64,000 bases of DNA from Nocardia goodfellowii (GTDB taxonomy: Bacteria; Actinomycetota; Actinomycetes; Mycobacteriales; Mycobacteriaceae): positions 2,914,001 to 2,978,000 of the forward strand of contig NZ_JAGGMR010000001.1 in the NCBI RefSeq assembly GCF_017875645.1, written 5' to 3'. A model generated the notes under the pieces. The model searched no databases, was not told where the DNA came from, and was given only the letters and a program-made list of their open reading frames with translations. Both the position numbers and the translations under genes were made by a program. How positions within the stretch are numbered: the first letter of the stretch is position 1; every line of letters begins with the position of its first letter. Below, in pieces: positions 15,079 to 21,225 of this stretch.

Positions 15079-16050
15079 TTATTTGAACCGCTGCGCGAGG
15101 AGGTCCAGGGTGGCCATGGCATTGCGGTAGTCGGGGCGCTGACTGGTGGCGGGCAGGTCGTAGACCTGGCCGGAGCGGAAGGCCGGGAGCGTGGCGAGCA
15201 TCGCGTCGTCCTTCAGCTGCGCGAGGTCGCGGCCGCCCTCGAGCCGCACGACGAACAGGGCGGGGGCGTCGACCACGACGGTCAGCAGTTCCGGGCTGAA
15301 CGACACCCAGTCCGCGGCCGTGGCGCGGGTCGGGTTGCCCGCCTTGGCTTCCACCTTGTTGTCGACGGTGAAGCCGACCTCGGTCAGCAGCGCGGCCAGC
15401 GGGGTGCCGGGAGCGATGACCGACGGCTTGTTGTCCTTGCGTGACTGGAAGACCGAGACCGTGCCCGCCGGCACCTTGATGGCGGCTTTGACCTCGGCGA
15501 CCTTGGCGGTATAGGCGTTGATCATGGTGTCGACCTTGTCGGCCTTGTTCACGATGTTCGCGACGGCCCGTAACTGGTCCTGCCAGTTGGTGAGGTTGGA
15601 CGGCACCAGGACGGTCGGCGCGATCGCGCTCAACTTGTCGTAGGCGTCGATGGACTGCTGGCCGGGGAAGCCCTGGCCGCCGCCGATGATCAGGTCCGGC
15701 TGCTGGGCCGCGATGAACTCCAGATTGATGTTGTCCCCGGACGGCAGCACCGTGGTGCCCTGCTGCTTGGCGTCCGCGGCCCAGGCGGCGGGGAACTCGC
15801 CGGGCGCCAACGGAACGCCGAGAATGCGCGGGTCGGCGGCTTTCACCTTCGCGCCGAGGTCGAAGAGGTATCCGGCGAGCGAGCCGTTGACCACGGCGAT
15901 GCGCTGCGGTTCGGCGGGCACCGCGATAGCGCCGCGGTCGGTCTGTACCTCGCGGGTGCCGGAGGTCTCGGCGGCGTCCGTACCGGAATTGCCGCATCCC
16001 GCGACGACCGCGACCAGTGCGAGGACGAACAGGGCGAGCGCAGCGCGCAT
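15079..16050 (-). CDS. iron-siderophore ABC transporter substrate-binding lipoprotein (FecB/FepB-like)
   Basis: 323 residues from ATG 16050. This start gives a textbook lipoprotein signal (MRAALAL, hydrophobic core, lipobox VAGC with Cys19); the longer frame from GTG 16083 would put an IdeR-like box inside the coding region. The remainder is a class III periplasmic-binding fold: RIAVVNGSLAGYLFDLG, PDLIIGGGQG and the long central helix. It delivers ferric siderophore to a permease that is not in the window. Two IdeR/DtxR-like sites directly upstream (16066-16104) indicate iron repression. Confidence 0.9.
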   Translation of the reverse strand: MRAALALFVLALVAVVAGCGNSGTDAAETSGTREVQTDRGAIAVPAEPQRIAVVNGSLAGYLFDLGAKVKAADPRILGVPLAPGEFPAAWAADAKQQGTTVLPSGDNINLEFIAAQQPDLIIGGGQGFPGQQSIDAYDKLSAIAPTVLVPSNLTNWQDQLRAVANIVNKADKVDTMINAYTAKVAEVKAAIKVPAGTVSVFQSRKDNKPSVIAPGTPLAALLTEVGFTVDNKVEAKAGNPTRATAADWVSFSPELLTVVVDAPALFVVRLEGGRDLAQLKDDAMLATLPAFRSGQVYDLPATSQRPDYRNAMATLDLLAQRFK

Positions 16051-16065
16051 GCGGGCTGCTGTTTG

Positions 16066-16104
16066 GTTTAGGCTAACTCTCACGAGCGAAGGCTAGCCTA
16101 ACTT
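16066..16104 (-). promoter_or_regulatory. tandem IdeR/DtxR-like iron boxes
   Basis: Site one is centred on the perfect palindrome AGGCTAGCCT (16090-16099), in context AGTTAGGCTAGCCTTCG on the minus strand. Site two contains TTAGGCTAAC (16068-16077). Both resemble the IdeR consensus TTAGGTTAGGCTAACCTAA. They flank the promoter of the siderophore-binding lipoprotein and reach the stop codon of the nitroreductase gene. Confidence 0.75.
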
Positions 16105-17060
16105 TATTTCGGCGCGAAACCCCCGGTTCTGCGGAACGAAGGGGCCGGAAGCGTCGCGGGTCTGCCGCAACGAGCGACGTGCAGGAGACTCGCGGGTTCG
16201 CCGATTCCGAGCAGGTCGGCCAGGGTGGCACGGGTCGCGGAGCAGTCGAGGAGTTGGCTCAGCGGGTGCGTCGTATGACCGTGGCGGGAGAGCTCGAGCC
16301 AGATCCGCAGCAGGGCCCGGCCCGCTCCGATCGGATCGAGCGGGTCGGCCACGAGAACGAAAAGATCACCGTCGCAGTCGAATCGACCTTGTGCGGCCAG
16401 CAGCCGTGGCAGGCCGAGCCGGCGCAGGACCGGATATCCGGCGAGTGCGACACGCAGCCCGCGAGCTTCGAACCGGGTAAGGCCCAGGGCCGCGGCGGTA
16501 AGTCCGTCTTCTCGGTATCGCGGATGATGCGAGGTGAGGCGCAGCCAGTCGCGCAGTTCGGCTACCACCGCGGGCGTACCGAACAGATGCCGATCAGCTT
16601 GGCGCACCAGCGGATTCACGCTGTCGCCGGAGAGGAGGCGGAGTTCGGCCCCGGAGGCGTTCGCGATGCCGGTGACCCGGGCCCGCAGCTTTTCGTTCAG
16701 CGGGCCGGGCTGATACGCGCCCCGGTGCGTGGTTCGGCGCTGCAAGTCCGCGATGGTGTACGGGGTTTCGTAGCGGAGTGCGGCCGGGACCAATCGCCCG
16801 ATCCGACGGTCGCCGCGCTCCGGCTCGAAGGCGATCGCGAGACCCGAGTCCGCGCAGGCGATGAGGCAGCCTTCGACGAACGCGCCCAGGGATAGCAGGA
16901 GATCTCTTGCGTCGGAGTCGCTTCGGGGAAGCGTGCGGCCGACATCCCAGCCGATGGTGACGTGGTCGTCACAGTAGGTCAGGGTCCACGGCTGGGTGTT
17001 GTGCGCGCTGGGTGCTCGACCGAACACCGGTTCGAGGGCGCGCACGGCGTCGATGGTCAT
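16104..17060 (-). CDS. Acg-type nitroreductase family protein
   Basis: 318 residues. The N-terminal motif PSAHNTQPW (17-25) is the hallmark of the Acg/Rv2032-type subgroup of FMN-binding nitroreductases, usually 310-340 residues and duplicated internally. These proteins bind FMN; several mycobacterial members lack classical nitroreductase activity and are proposed to store flavin. Last gene of a four-gene operon: its ATG overlaps the TGA of the upstream acyltransferase gene (4 bases). Within the operon it could supply or store FMN or reduce a pathway intermediate. Stop codon lies at the edge of the IdeR-like box of the next gene. Confidence 0.85.
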   Translation of the reverse strand: MTIDAVRALEPVFGRAPSAHNTQPWTLTYCDDHVTIGWDVGRTLPRSDSDARDLLLSLGAFVEGCLIACADSGLAIAFEPERGDRRIGRLVPAALRYETPYTIADLQRRTTHRGAYQPGPLNEKLRARVTGIANASGAELRLLSGDSVNPLVRQADRHLFGTPAVVAELRDWLRLTSHHPRYREDGLTAAALGLTRFEARGLRVALAGYPVLRRLGLPRLLAAQGRFDCDGDLFVLVADPLDPIGAGRALLRIWLELSRHGHTTHPLSQLLDCSATRATLADLLGIGEPASLLHVARCGRPATLPAPSFRRTGGFAPK

Positions 17061-18133
17061 CGAAGGTCCTTGTCGTAGAAGGTATAGCCGTGCAGCGGGC
17101 GGCCGCCCATCGCGCGGTAGTGCGCCGCCGAGGCGGGATTCGCGCGTTCGACGAAGGTGCTGCGCAACTGCTCGTAGCCGCCCGCCCGCAGGTTGCGCAG
17201 CAGTTCGCGGGACAGATAGCGCATGTAGCCGCAGCCCTGGCGACCGGGGACGGTGCCCTTGATGACCAGCACCGCCTCGCGCCGGTAGCGCGACCTACCG
17301 GCGAGCAGTCGGAGCTGATTGCGGAGGCCGAGGTCGCCGTCGATCTTGCCGAGAAACTCGGAGATGTCGGGAACGCACAGCACGAACGCCACCGGGCGGT
17401 CCGCTTCGGTGAGGTAGAGCAACAGTGATTCGTCGAGCAGATAGGCCAGGCCGTCGGTCTGTGCTGCCAGCTGTTCGGCCGAGATACCGGTGTAATAGCC
17501 CAGTTGAGCGAAGGATTCGTTCAGCATCTCGCGCAGGATCGGCAATTGCGTGGCGATGCGTCTCCGGTCGCCTCGATGCAGGCGCAATCGCTCGGCGGAC
17601 AGCCGGGCGTCGTCGAAGCTGAACGCGGTGTCGGGATCGGCGTCCGTCGGGCAGATCCAGGTGTCGGACTCGAAACGCCTTGTAAAGCCGAAGGATTCGT
17701 ACTCCTTCGGGTAGTACTCAGGATTCCAGGCGCTGTCGATGAATCCGCGGTCCGCGAACCCGGAGGTGATGACGCCACCGGCCTGATTCGGCAGCAGAGA
17801 TACCGGTCCGAAGACTCCGTCCCGCCCGTTTCTCCTTGCCGCACGGCCGATTTCGGCGAACAGCGCCGCTCCCGCGCCGGGCCGGAATTCGGTGAGTCCG
17901 AACAACTGCGGCCGTCGGCTGAGCTTCGTGTCGAAGGCGGCGTCGGTGTGCAGCGTGGTGCGCGCGATCACCCGCCCGCTGCTGTCCCGCAGCAGGTGGA
18001 GTGCGACGCCGTCGCGGTACCACCGATTGATGGTCTGGTGCGGTATCGGCACATAACGGTGATCGTGCAATTGCCGCGGCAACGCCAGGAACTCGCGCAG
18101 CGCAGGGGCATTCGTCACCTGCTCGAACCTCAT
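17057..18133 (-). CDS. YghO-like GNAT-fold acyltransferase
   Basis: 358 residues from ATG 18133, which overlaps the upstream TGA. Features of the YghO/long GNAT-like family: an N-terminal segment with LPRQLHDHRYVPIP, the central FGPVSLLPNQAGGV and the WNPEYYPKEYESFGF block, and a second GNAT half near the C-terminus with IKGTVPGRQGCGYMRYLSREL resembling an acetyl-CoA-binding loop. Probably transfers an acyl group to an amine or alcohol; acyl donor and acceptor unknown. Its own TGA overlaps the nitroreductase ATG. Third gene of the PaaK-like operon. Confidence 0.75.
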   Translation of the reverse strand: MRFEQVTNAPALREFLALPRQLHDHRYVPIPHQTINRWYRDGVALHLLRDSSGRVIARTTLHTDAAFDTKLSRRPQLFGLTEFRPGAGAALFAEIGRAARRNGRDGVFGPVSLLPNQAGGVITSGFADRGFIDSAWNPEYYPKEYESFGFTRRFESDTWICPTDADPDTAFSFDDARLSAERLRLHRGDRRRIATQLPILREMLNESFAQLGYYTGISAEQLAAQTDGLAYLLDESLLLYLTEADRPVAFVLCVPDISEFLGKIDGDLGLRNQLRLLAGRSRYRREAVLVIKGTVPGRQGCGYMRYLSRELLRNLRAGGYEQLRSTFVERANPASAAHYRAMGGRPLHGYTFYDKDLR

Positions 18134-18573
18134 CGCCGCACCACCGGCGGGCCCGCCTGCTCCGTGGACAGCGGCGTGAAGGTCGGAATATGCCCCATCC
18201 GATTGCCTTCGGCCCGCCAGATGCCATTGCTGTACCCCGCCGGATCCGCGTAATACAGCCGGATGAAGCCGCCGGTGGCGTTGTTGGTGTCGTCGGTTAC
18301 CCAGACCATCAGTTCGCGATGGCGCTTGCTGCGGGCGAAACTCAGCAGCGCGTCGCGATCCTCGAAGAACGCGATCGTGCCGAGTGTGAGTGGAAACTCG
18401 TAATAGACCTTGTGCCAACGATATCCGCGCATGCGCCGCATGTCGCGCACCATCCGGACCCAGGTGCGGGTCAGGGTGAGAATCGAGCGCGGGCCGCGGT
18501 ATCTCGTCGCGCCGATGAACATGGCGGAGGCCTGTCCCTGTGGCGGGGTCTTGCTGAAGTCGGTGGTTCTCAC
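18130..18573 (-). CDS. dimeric alpha-beta barrel (monooxygenase-like) protein
   Basis: 147 residues; ATG 18573 overlaps the stop of the PaaK-like gene and its own stop overlaps the next start. Pattern MFIGATRYRG, WHKVYYEFPLTLGTIAFFED and LLSFARSKRHRELMVW resembles the ferredoxin-like antibiotic biosynthesis monooxygenase/DUF4188 superfamily, in which a His near the end of the helix (KRHRELM) is part of the active pocket. Whether it is an oxygenase or an isomerase-type enzyme cannot be said. Second gene of the operon. Confidence 0.65.
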   Translation of the reverse strand: MRTTDFSKTPPQGQASAMFIGATRYRGPRSILTLTRTWVRMVRDMRRMRGYRWHKVYYEFPLTLGTIAFFEDRDALLSFARSKRHRELMVWVTDDTNNATGGFIRLYYADPAGYSNGIWRAEGNRMGHIPTFTPLSTEQAGPPVVRR

Positions 18574-20138
18574 GACGCCTCCACCAGATACGAGTTCTTG
18601 AGCTTGGTCCGCGCGGCGAAGGGGCCGGTACCCGGCTCGAACAGTCGTACCCGCAGGTCGGCGGCGCTCGGATCCTCGCGCACGGAAGCGGCGAAGTCAC
18701 GCGAGACATGCGCCAGGTGGTTCAGCACACCGCGGCGGCAGGATTCGGCGAGCAGCACCCGCTCGCGGGCGTCCAGGCCGGTGTCCCGCAGTTCCAGGTT
18801 GACCACCGGGCGCGCTTCCAGGCTGGGCAGCTCCGCCAGCGACAGGCAGAACCCGGCGATTCGGTCGGCATACGGGTTGTCCTGGTATAGGCCGTATTCG
18901 ACATCCTGGGGATAGAGGTTAGCGCCCATGTAGGAGACGGTGCTGTCGGTGCGGCCGAACAGGAACAGCAGCGGCAGGTTCATCCGGTCGGCGCCGCGAT
19001 GACGTTGGAACTCGGCCCAGCGCACCGGGTCTCGGCGCAACGCGCGCAGCACCGTGGGCAGAGTGTGCAGCACCGCTTCGTCACCGACGTTGTAGCGCAG
19101 CTTGGGTTGCAGGCAGTGCCGGGAAGTGATGGTGCACAACAGCTCCGAGCGCGCGTTGGTCTCCAGGTACGTCTCCAGCGGGTTGTAGTGGAAGATCATC
19201 GGCAGTCGCTGTTCGCCGGCGCCCAGCAGCTCGCGCCGCAGCTCGGCGTCCTGGGCCAGCAGCTTGCGCAACCAGACGGTGCAGCCGGTCTCCGCGCCGA
19301 TGCCGATCGACAGATCGCTCGCGCCGTATCCCGACCGCACCCGGACGAACCGCTGCTCCAGGTAGTCGCGCAGCGCCTCGGTCAGCGCCTCGCCGCCCAC
19401 CATGCCTTGCAATCGGTATGCGTCCCAGTCGAATCCGAGCTCGTCGAGGCGGTCGCGCAGGTGCTTCAGGAATGGCGGGTACGCGGCGACGACATAGTCG
19501 TAGTCCGGCCCGAACTGCCGCAGCGTGTCGACGATCTTGTCCAGATCCGGGCCGGTGTTCTTCACCATCGCGATCCGCGCCAGCGCGGCCCCGGTGGTGG
19601 TGCCGGTCGCCCACGCACCCATCGAGTAGGCGTTGATCACGAACAGTCGATCGCCGGGAAACGCCATCTGCACATAGCCCGCCGCATTGCGGTAGATGGT
19701 GCGCAACTCCTTGGGCCCGCGCGCCCAGTTGAACGGTGTGCCGGTCGAACCCGAGGACTCGTCGACGATGACGCCCGCGCGATGCAACCGGCCCTCGCGG
19801 CAGCGGCTCTCCTGGTCGTACCGGCTCGCGTAGCCGGACTTGTCGGTTTCGGGAAAATCATTGAGCCGCTTCGCCTTTCCGGCACCCGATCGGCGCAGGA
19901 AGTCCCGGTAGGCGGGAACTTCCAGGGCCGCGAGGCGGCAGGTCGCTTCGGCGTGCCCGGCCGCCACCCGGGCGAGACTCGGATGGTAGGTCCGAGCCAT
20001 CCGCCGCCAAAGCGCCGGATGTGCCGACGCGGTGTGATAAACCCCCGTCAGGAACCCCGAAACAGCTTGCAGTCGAACGCGTCTCGCCCGCTCCCGCGCG
20101 GTCGCCCGGCGCGTTCCCCCGGTGAAAGTTCTGTTCAT
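18570..20138 (-). CDS. PaaK-like (phenylacetate-CoA ligase family) adenylate-forming enzyme
   Basis: 522 residues from ATG 20138. ATP-binding motif SSGSTGTP (128-135) and the downstream SGYGASDLSIGIGAE, a PaaK-style A5-like region, followed by a FLFGRTDSTVSYMGANLYP stretch that matches the A7-A8 hinge. These enzymes activate aryl or short acyl carboxylates as AMP esters and pass them to CoA, an amine or a carrier. No carrier protein gene is nearby, so direct transfer or CoA ligation is likely. It leads a four-gene operon with 4-base overlaps (20138 down to 16104). Confidence 0.8.
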   Translation of the reverse strand: MNRTFTGGTRRATARERARRVRLQAVSGFLTGVYHTASAHPALWRRMARTYHPSLARVAAGHAEATCRLAALEVPAYRDFLRRSGAGKAKRLNDFPETDKSGYASRYDQESRCREGRLHRAGVIVDESSGSTGTPFNWARGPKELRTIYRNAAGYVQMAFPGDRLFVINAYSMGAWATGTTTGAALARIAMVKNTGPDLDKIVDTLRQFGPDYDYVVAAYPPFLKHLRDRLDELGFDWDAYRLQGMVGGEALTEALRDYLEQRFVRVRSGYGASDLSIGIGAETGCTVWLRKLLAQDAELRRELLGAGEQRLPMIFHYNPLETYLETNARSELLCTITSRHCLQPKLRYNVGDEAVLHTLPTVLRALRRDPVRWAEFQRHRGADRMNLPLLFLFGRTDSTVSYMGANLYPQDVEYGLYQDNPYADRIAGFCLSLAELPSLEARPVVNLELRDTGLDARERVLLAESCRRGVLNHLAHVSRDFAASVREDPSAADLRVRLFEPGTGPFAARTKLKNSYLVEAS

Positions 20139-20208: not shown

Positions 20209-21060
20209 TCATTCCGCTCGGCTACGGCGGCAACAGTCCCGCAGAAACGGCACCAGGTGCGCGGCAACGGCGTCGGGGTCGTCGGCGAAGGGCCAGTGGC
20301 CGAGCCCGGGCAAGATCTGGATGTCGGCCGCCGGCCAGACCTCGGACTGGGTGTGGGCGAAGTGGGCGGGCACCCACGGATCCTCGGCGCCCCAGAGAAC
20401 CAGGGCCGGAACCTCGCGCGGAATGGCCAGCATCGATGCGGCCAGCATGGCGGCGGGGTCCCGGGCGGCGCGGTAGAGCTCGAGCACGGTGCGGCGGGTG
20501 TGCCGGTCGTAGCCGTCGTACATGTGGTCGATGAAATCGCGGGGCAGCCGCGGATTGGCGCGTCGCAGCAACCAGCGCATGCCGGGGCGGTTGGTCACCG
20601 CCTGGGTGAACTCGCCGAGGATCGGTGTCTGCCAGATCCGGGCGTAGGCGTGCCAGCGGTAACCGGGCAGCGCTCCGGCGTTGATCAGCGTGATCGAGGC
20701 GACCCGCTCGGGCCGGGCCGCGGCCCAGGCCAATCCCCACGGAACGCCGAAGTCGTGCCCGACGAGGTGGACACGGCGCAGGCCGAGCGTCTCGATGGCG
20801 GCGATGAGGAAGGCGCGGTAGTCGCCTTCGACGCGGTGGTCGAAACCGGGGAAGGTGCGGGCAGCGCCGTAACCGGGCAGGTCGAACGCGATCGCACGGG
20901 CGAACTCGCCGACCCGGGGCAGTAATGAGAGCCAGTCGGCCGCGTTGCCCGGGGTGCCGTGCAGAAAAACCACCGCCTCGTCGGCGGTGGGGTCACCGGA
21001 TTGCAGCAGCGTGGACGTGACCTGGGCGACGCGGAGTTCTTCTGCGGAAATATTGTGCAT
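20209..21060 (-). CDS. epoxide hydrolase/haloalkane dehalogenase-type alpha/beta hydrolase
   Basis: 283 residues from ATG 21060 (a longer frame from GTG 21144 adds an unlikely N-terminus). HGTPG (34-38) is the oxyanion-hole motif of epoxide hydrolases, and the nucleophile elbow reads GHDFG with Asp103, not Ser. The acid lies in WGAEDPW and the base in GLGHWPF. Asp nucleophiles define the epoxide hydrolase and dehalogenase branch, so C-O or C-X hydrolysis via an alkyl-enzyme ester is expected. No signal peptide. Same strand as the PaaK-like operon but 70 bases downstream-to-upstream apart, so it might be its first transcribed neighbour; the link is weak. Confidence 0.85.
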   Translation of the reverse strand: MHNISAEELRVAQVTSTLLQSGDPTADEAVVFLHGTPGNAADWLSLLPRVGEFARAIAFDLPGYGAARTFPGFDHRVEGDYRAFLIAAIETLGLRRVHLVGHDFGVPWGLAWAAARPERVASITLINAGALPGYRWHAYARIWQTPILGEFTQAVTNRPGMRWLLRRANPRLPRDFIDHMYDGYDRHTRRTVLELYRAARDPAAMLAASMLAIPREVPALVLWGAEDPWVPAHFAHTQSEVWPAADIQILPGLGHWPFADDPDAVAAHLVPFLRDCCRRSRAE

Positions 21061-21225
21061 GCCTTCGGCTTTCGATCGGTGGTTGCCACCAATCTGCCCG
21101 GTTGCCGTGGCGCTCGATACCGTCCAGGGGACGATGTTCGCCACCTACCACGGCAGGAGACGGCGCGACACGCGGCCTACGCGGGCGGTGGGCCGGGGCG
21201 CCGGTGCAGGCGGAGAAAATGCACG

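Follow-up and report, generated by a model that had tools for sequence, protein, structure and literature searches.

What could be made by an operon that joins an adenylating enzyme, a small barrel protein, an acyltransferase, and a flavin protein, and that has no carrier protein gene? This question is raised by four genes of Nocardia goodfellowii that run on the minus strand from 20138 to 16104 of a 64,000-nucleotide stretch (hereafter, the window; positions 2,914,001 to 2,978,000 of contig NZ_JAGGMR010000001.1, assembly GCF_017875645.1), within a genome of 7.98 Mb. The operon is a single unit conserved as a block among actinobacteria, and it could constitute, with about even chances in our judgment, a self-contained, carrier-protein-free pathway to a small N-acylated, oxidised lipid or amide. 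No description of this operon was found in the open-licence PMC literature.

Conservation of the Operon as a Block

An earlier, sequence-only reading of this DNA had proposed the four genes as a set and had named poor conservation of their order as the outcome that would count against it. The set, its coordinates, and its 4-base overlaps at all junctions are confirmed on the minus strand, and the order is kept as a block in relatives. With the PaaK-like protein encoded by gene 1 as the only query, a contig pattern scan (not exhaustive) returned 20 loci from Nocardia, Actinomadura, Microtetraspora, Nonomuraea, and one metagenome-assembled genome of Pseudonocardiales, 16 of which have the four genes in one uninterrupted run. 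In three Nonomuraea species (L020, L033, and L034), other genes spanning approximately 5, 13, and 17 kb, respectively, separate the PaaK-like gene from the remaining three, all four lying on the same contig as judged from its length and coordinates, and in L019 the contig ends just beyond the barrel gene.

The acyltransferase of gene 3, a tandem GNAT, was searched alone at E ≤ 1e-20 (order, class, and genus) or E ≤ 1e-15 (phylum) and matched 26 of 298 genomes of the order, 4 of 296 of the class, 7 of 150 of the genus, and 17 of 396 of the phylum, counts that include the window's own genome each time and come from overlapping samples. In the order, class, and genus searches, all 28 other genomes with a match of at least 34% identity have the PaaK-like, barrel, and Acg-like genes in the expected order no more than 1.5 kb away; the four loci at 25–29% identity (L069–L072, about 19 kb each) contain none of these three. 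An actinobacterium of another class (G893), whose stretch has a GC content of 35%, carries all four genes in order, at approximately 47, 50, 42, and 28% identity, with a GNAT/Acg-like overlap of 4 bases; the block thus recurs from Nocardia to a low-GC actinobacterium of a different class. The other 14 phylum matches lie at 23–27% identity, and in the seven of them that were fetched the PaaK-like, barrel, and Acg-like genes were found in none, within the stretch. The barrel protein alone matched 26 of the 298 genomes of the order, with all four genes adjacent in 25, the very genomes in which the order-level search had found GNAT orthologs; in the remaining one (G035, 82% complete) the PaaK-like and barrel genes are followed by the end of the contig, and no barrel gene without an adjoining PaaK-like gene was seen in these 298 genomes. 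The operon loci were found through genes 1–3 as queries and not through gene 4, and three of the protein listings comprised the best 120 proteins each. Within the genus the distribution is patchy, the operon being present at 70% identity or more in 4 of 150 genomes, one of them the window's own.

The protein distances of the four genes correlate over 30 rows (Spearman 0.74–0.94; for none of the six pairs did any of 500 permutations reach the observed value), as expected of joint inheritance, with a contribution from shared species history. Relative to the nearest relative, L082, the pairwise ratios of nonsynonymous to synonymous substitution rates (dN/dS) are 0.16, 0.11, 0.16, and 0.25 for genes 1–4. 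The junctions are conserved as well, with an overlap of exactly 4 bases in 21 of the 30 rows for PaaK/barrel (GTGA at 18570–18573 of the window), in 27 for barrel/GNAT (ATGA at 18130–18133), and in 24 for GNAT/Acg-like (ATGA at 17057–17060), although individual values may be off, as the script took the in-frame start nearest to the aligned one. These rows represent 29 genomes, L016 and L081 being one locus of N. panacis, and they exclude L019, L033, L034, L083, and L084, whose operons are truncated or interrupted. A gap of 545 bases in L074 is an artefact, since its PaaK frame has one in-frame stop; L059 and L061, and also L217 and L218, represent one genome, with broken frames. The four genes appear to be translationally coupled. 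A simple promoter and terminator scan, which is uninformative for actinobacteria, found no site.

Identity of the Four Proteins

Pfam and NCBIfam alone are nearly blind to genes 1–3, and relatives and models were therefore used. The sequence-only reading had called the products a PaaK-like ligase, a small barrel protein, a YghO-like acyltransferase, and an Acg-like flavin mononucleotide (FMN) protein, and these identities are borne out by the conserved PaaK-type motifs, the predicted barrel model and its PDB matches, the full-length YghO match, and the profile score and PDB match of gene 4, respectively.

Gene 1 (18570–20138, minus strand, ATG start) encodes a non-canonical PaaK-like adenylate-forming enzyme of 522 residues, assigned through its motifs and its clade. 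The adenylation motifs around SSGxxGxP, YGASD, and GRxDSTxSYMGANLYPQDVE are largely invariant in 23 relatives and align with those of the solved PaaK 2Y4O, which places the protein in the PaaK branch of the ANL superfamily. The C-terminal lysine K514, invariant in the alignment, is a plausible candidate for the catalytic residue. On TIGR02155, the PaaK equivalog, gene 1 reaches 32.2 bits against a cut-off of 646.3, so it is not a curated PaaK, and the aryl-acid specificity that the sequence-only reading had suggested finds no support at such a score. A 34-row tree unites the operon proteins, 18 in all (the window's and 17 others), in one clade with support 99/99, far from six more distant PaaK-like rows, whose canonical status is presumed and not derived from TIGR02155; long branches (L156 and L176) leave some joins of this tree unsure. 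Among the remaining relatives are three Nocardia proteins whose genes adjoin a ThiF gene.

Gene 2 (18130–18573, minus strand, GTG start) encodes an alpha/beta barrel of 147 residues from the DUF4188/af470-like ABM oxygenase superfamily. Its nearest family by sequence is PF13826 (Monooxygenase af470-like), on which it scores 22.5 bits against a gathering cut-off of 25, and 25 of 31 aligned barrel members match this family at E ≤ 0.01. Sequence searches of the PDB returned nothing useful for the barrel, and the predicted model (mean predicted local distance difference test score, pLDDT, 77) matches PDB structures in the ABM superfamily, including SnoaB and ActVA-Orf6, with TM scores of about 0.5 normalised by query length. 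The Pfam family takes its name from Fma-ABM (af470) of fumagillin biosynthesis, an oxygenase described as cleaving an acyl chain (PMC11727611, PMC7020470), and its homolog Lim18, from the limocrocin pathway of Streptomyces, is proposed there to act likewise (PMC11727611). Both belong to polyketide pathways, with polyene cleavage either actual or proposed (PMC11727611, PMC7020470), whereas no polyketide synthase accompanies the operon among the 16 proteins of the window that were compared with Pfam, which gives an af470-type oxygenase a context without such a synthase among the scanned neighbours. Carrier and terpene families are equally missing from these 16 proteins, as the sequence-only reading had noted for all three classes; one SDR among them also matches the KR model.

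Gene 3 (17057–18133, minus strand, ATG start) encodes a tandem GNAT acyltransferase of 358 residues in the YghO/bacterial ceramide synthase family. The longest mechanical open reading frame encodes 550 residues, and the start at 18133 is backed by relatives. The protein shares 22% identity with Escherichia coli YghO over residues 8–357 (E 3e-18), that is, over its full length, and hhalign against a nine-row YghO-like alignment gives a probability of 100 over 367 columns; PDB sequence searches yielded nothing useful for the GNAT. In the bacterial sphingolipid gene set, E. coli yghO is labelled as a homolog of aca, the acyl-CoA N-acyltransferase gene, and might encode an N-acyltransferase (PMC9386255); an amine acceptor is for this reason favoured over an alcohol. 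The resemblance to that system extends to a dedicated adenylating enzyme, which also serves the Caulobacter pathway (PMC9386255), and it ends at the partner genes, since the operon has an oxygenase and a flavin protein instead of spt and cerR/epi, and no serine palmitoyltransferase, epimerase, or reductase partner family was found among the 16 scanned proteins.

Several loci outside the operon bear on this acyltransferase family. The YghO of E. coli K-12 (L185:9044-10216) is annotated as a putative DNA-binding regulator, yet it aligns over its length with the acyltransferase family. In another actinobacterial class (L177 and L178), a serine-palmitoyltransferase-like gene adjoins a YghO-like acyltransferase gene, with scores below the curated cut-offs, and L178 also has an epimerase-like gene; by their sequences, both loci are candidate ceramide clusters. 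The YghO-like GNATs of L069–L072, at 25–29% identity to the window's, stand in differing surroundings, with an epimerase-like gene in L070 and, in L072, diaminobutyrate aminotransferase-like and decarboxylase-like genes together with a membrane protein that looks by eye like a desaturase and has no NCBIfam match. Perhaps these surroundings represent another amine-lipid pathway.

Gene 4 (16104–17060, minus strand, ATG start) encodes an Acg-like FMN protein of 318 residues in the nitroreductase superfamily. It scores 158.4 bits on NF047509 (Acg/Rv3131, FDO-B type) against a cut-off of 199, below curated membership, and 63 bits on NF005901 (TrzS type) against a cut-off of 476. It shares with the Acg/Rv3131 proteins the superfamily and the FMN-motif region; the motif RAPSAHNTQPW is conserved among the operon flavin proteins. 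It differs from them in its position, since in a tree of 76 rows the 32 operon proteins form their own clade (support 100/99) and the 32 Acg/Rv3131-type rows (B group) form a separate one (97/90). The 12 TrzS-type rows (A4) stand apart from the others weakly (86/53). This tree represented the A group by the TrzS type, not by the TyzC and OxzB types, and the position of gene 4 relative to that group is unsure because 7 of the 12 TrzS-type rows are incomplete, these seven and L073 occupying less than half of the columns retained; the rows L016 and L081 do not differ. Three Acg/Rv3131-type genes above the cut-off are present elsewhere in the same genome.

The kinship with Acg could suggest a different function, in which the operon would modify an existing lipid or cofactor as a stress-response unit, the flavin protein storing FMN or repairing damage and the acyl enzymes tailoring a membrane lipid. 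This would agree with the PDB sequence search, where Acg (2YMV, E 3.5e-7, residues 12–75) is the sole match of gene 4 at E ≤ 0.1, and with the scan of the 16 window proteins, in which no recognisable secondary-metabolite core family appeared. However, the patchy distribution in the genus, the separation of the gene 4 clade from the Acg/Rv3131-type sequences, and the company of acyl-activating and acyl-transferring genes (in loci that were found via genes 1–3) all argue against such a unit, which we regard as quite unlikely.

Relation to Acyl-Oxazolone Pathways

The sequence-only reading had concluded that known classes do not fit the operon. This is not fully borne out, as the operon parallels the acyl-oxazolone and N-acyl dehydro-amino-acid pathways, and the unit is less isolated from known chemistry than had been held, its nearest logic being that of the acyl-oxazolone pathway. 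In the oxz, tyz, and trz systems, an N-acyltransferase acylates an aromatic amino acid, ring closure to the oxazolone is achieved by a ThiF protein at the expense of ATP, and a flavin oxidase uses O2 for desaturation (PMC10404671, PMC12856293); TyzC, OxzB, and TrzS, of the A subgroup, desaturate N-acyl amino acids or their oxazolones (PMC10404671, PMC12856293). The oxzAB genes of Pseudoalteromonas rubra and the tyzACB and trzAS genes of mycobacteria and Rhodococcus form compact sets that combine an N-acyltransferase with an ATP-dependent adenylating enzyme and with a flavin protein of the nitroreductase superfamily (PMC10404671, PMC12856293), and the same three kinds of enzyme are close neighbours in the related N-acyl dehydrotyrosine clusters (PMC12479983). 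The flavin protein of the operon agrees with these oxidases at the superfamily level only and falls into a clade of its own. In contrast to these pathways, the operon has a PaaK-like enzyme and no detected ThiF, a tandem GNAT of the YghO branch, and an extra ABM-type barrel; FeeM-type synthases were not among the 50 entries listed for the GNAT, a result that excludes nothing.

The parallel could be taken further, and the operon read as an oxazolone pathway in which PaaK stands for ThiF. The GNAT would then make an N-acyl amino acid from the acyl-CoA pool of the cell, adenylation of its carboxylate by the PaaK-like enzyme would allow the amide oxygen to form the oxazolone ring, and desaturation by the flavin protein and oxidation by the barrel would follow. 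The logic of the steps is that of tyz, trz, and oxz (N-acyl transfer, ATP-dependent carboxylate activation, and O2-dependent desaturation), and an insertion of about 10 residues is common to the operon flavin proteins and the four TrzS-type rows printed and absent from the four printed B-type rows. Nevertheless, PaaK-like enzymes usually make coenzyme A (CoA) thioesters, gene 4 scores closer to the B group than to the A group, and the genome of the window has a separate TrzS-type fusion of ThiF and flavin oxidase (G000:C1:2231448-2233541; L094 and L099), at 934 bits against the cut-off of 476. A tblastn search with the ThiF domain of this fusion (E ≤ 1e-3) had no match in the 34 operon loci or in the 64-kb window, and among 10 further PaaK-like loci it matched L151–L153. 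In these three Nocardia genomes, a PaaK-like gene lies beside a ThiF gene, and PaaK is no simple stand-in for ThiF there. The replacement of ThiF by PaaK, initially considered as the main explanation, was demoted on account of this adjacency, and we consider it unlikely. A more general form of the idea, a phylum-wide and as yet undescribed N-acyl dehydro-amino-acid or oxazolone-like lipid route with a PaaK-type enzyme for ThiF, a ceramide-synthase-type GNAT for the usual N-acyl amino acid synthase, and an added ABM oxygenase step that the oxazolone papers cited here do not mention, is doubtful.

The three loci are of some interest in themselves. In L151, L152, and L153 (genomes G008, G007, and G009, respectively), the ThiF gene directly beside the PaaK-like gene is of the TrzS-cyclase type, and no called gene in these stretches matches the GNAT, the barrel, or the Acg-like protein of the window; the two genes are possibly a two-gene adenylation pair.

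Proposed Pathway

The combination of PaaK activation, YghO-type N-acylation, and oxidation by the products of genes 2 and 4 is favoured because it makes oxazolone-type steps available without ThiF and adds an oxygenase. In this pathway, the PaaK-like enzyme would adenylate a carboxylic acid with ATP and hand on the activated acyl group, most likely as an acyl-CoA thioester. With O2, the ABM-type barrel would oxidise or cleave either the acyl chain or the amide product, the tandem GNAT would acylate the nitrogen of an amino acid or a long-chain amine, and the Acg-like flavin enzyme would dehydrogenate the N-acyl product, with O2 as acceptor, to give a dehydro-amide. The reaction type of each enzyme is predicted from its family, and the order of the steps, the substrates, and the product are putative. 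That a carboxylate is activated and transferred to an amine or an alcohol had already been proposed from the sequence alone; the outline holds and the choice is narrowed, in favour of the amine. In the reading that we prefer, the PaaK-like enzyme would make the acyl donor; alternatively, it might activate the N-acylated product so that a ring can close, and the sequence is compatible with both roles.

Several observations weigh against this pathway. No amine-supplying gene lies within the operon, and no ortholog has a known activity or product. The barrel is below the cut-off of its own family, and the confidence of its model is moderate. Because this model is also matched by the barrels of heme-degrading IsdG/IsdI and of hydroxynitrile lyase, the fold does not by itself identify the reaction. 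The profile score of gene 4 is nearer to Acg/Rv3131 (B) than to the A group (158 vs. 63 bits), and Acg reportedly has a covered active site. The B enzymes of Mycobacterium tuberculosis are described as not linked to oxazolones, and lipid desaturation is no more than suggested for them (PMC10404671). Finally, mycothiol synthase and other N-acetyltransferases of small molecules are among the solved structures nearest to the GNAT, which makes a short acyl group possible.

The last observation leads to an ester or short-chain acyl product, close to the idea of the sequence-only reading, in which the PaaK-like enzyme would build an aryl-CoA and the GNAT would use a short acyl-CoA in the manner of mycothiol synthase. 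Such a product seems rather improbable, given that homology points to the YghO/ceramide-synthase branch and that the PaaK-like enzyme is far under the PaaK cut-off. The N-acylated, oxidised lipid or amide would, in turn, assign a further clade of flavin proteins of the nitroreductase superfamily to a defined pathway, a matter of relevance to the role of Acg-like proteins. The operon is a good target because the unit is self-contained, and the whole of it could be expressed in one construct, since it consists of four genes in 4 kb and includes no carrier protein.

Flanking Genes

Two adjacent genes were considered as further members and rejected, an alpha/beta hydrolase gene upstream (20209–21144) and a siderophore-binding protein gene downstream (15079–16083), as the family of each recurs only in L082 among 17 other stretches. 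No flanking family is common to all genera, and the few that are shared between genera look commonplace by eye (TetR, MFS, and ABC proteins). Between the end of the operon and the siderophore-binding protein gene, at 16060–16110 of the window, lies an inverted iron-box-like stretch, gttaggctagcct ... agttagcctaaac in the minus-strand reading, which by eye resembles IdeR/DtxR boxes and is probably a control element of the iron gene rather than of the operon.

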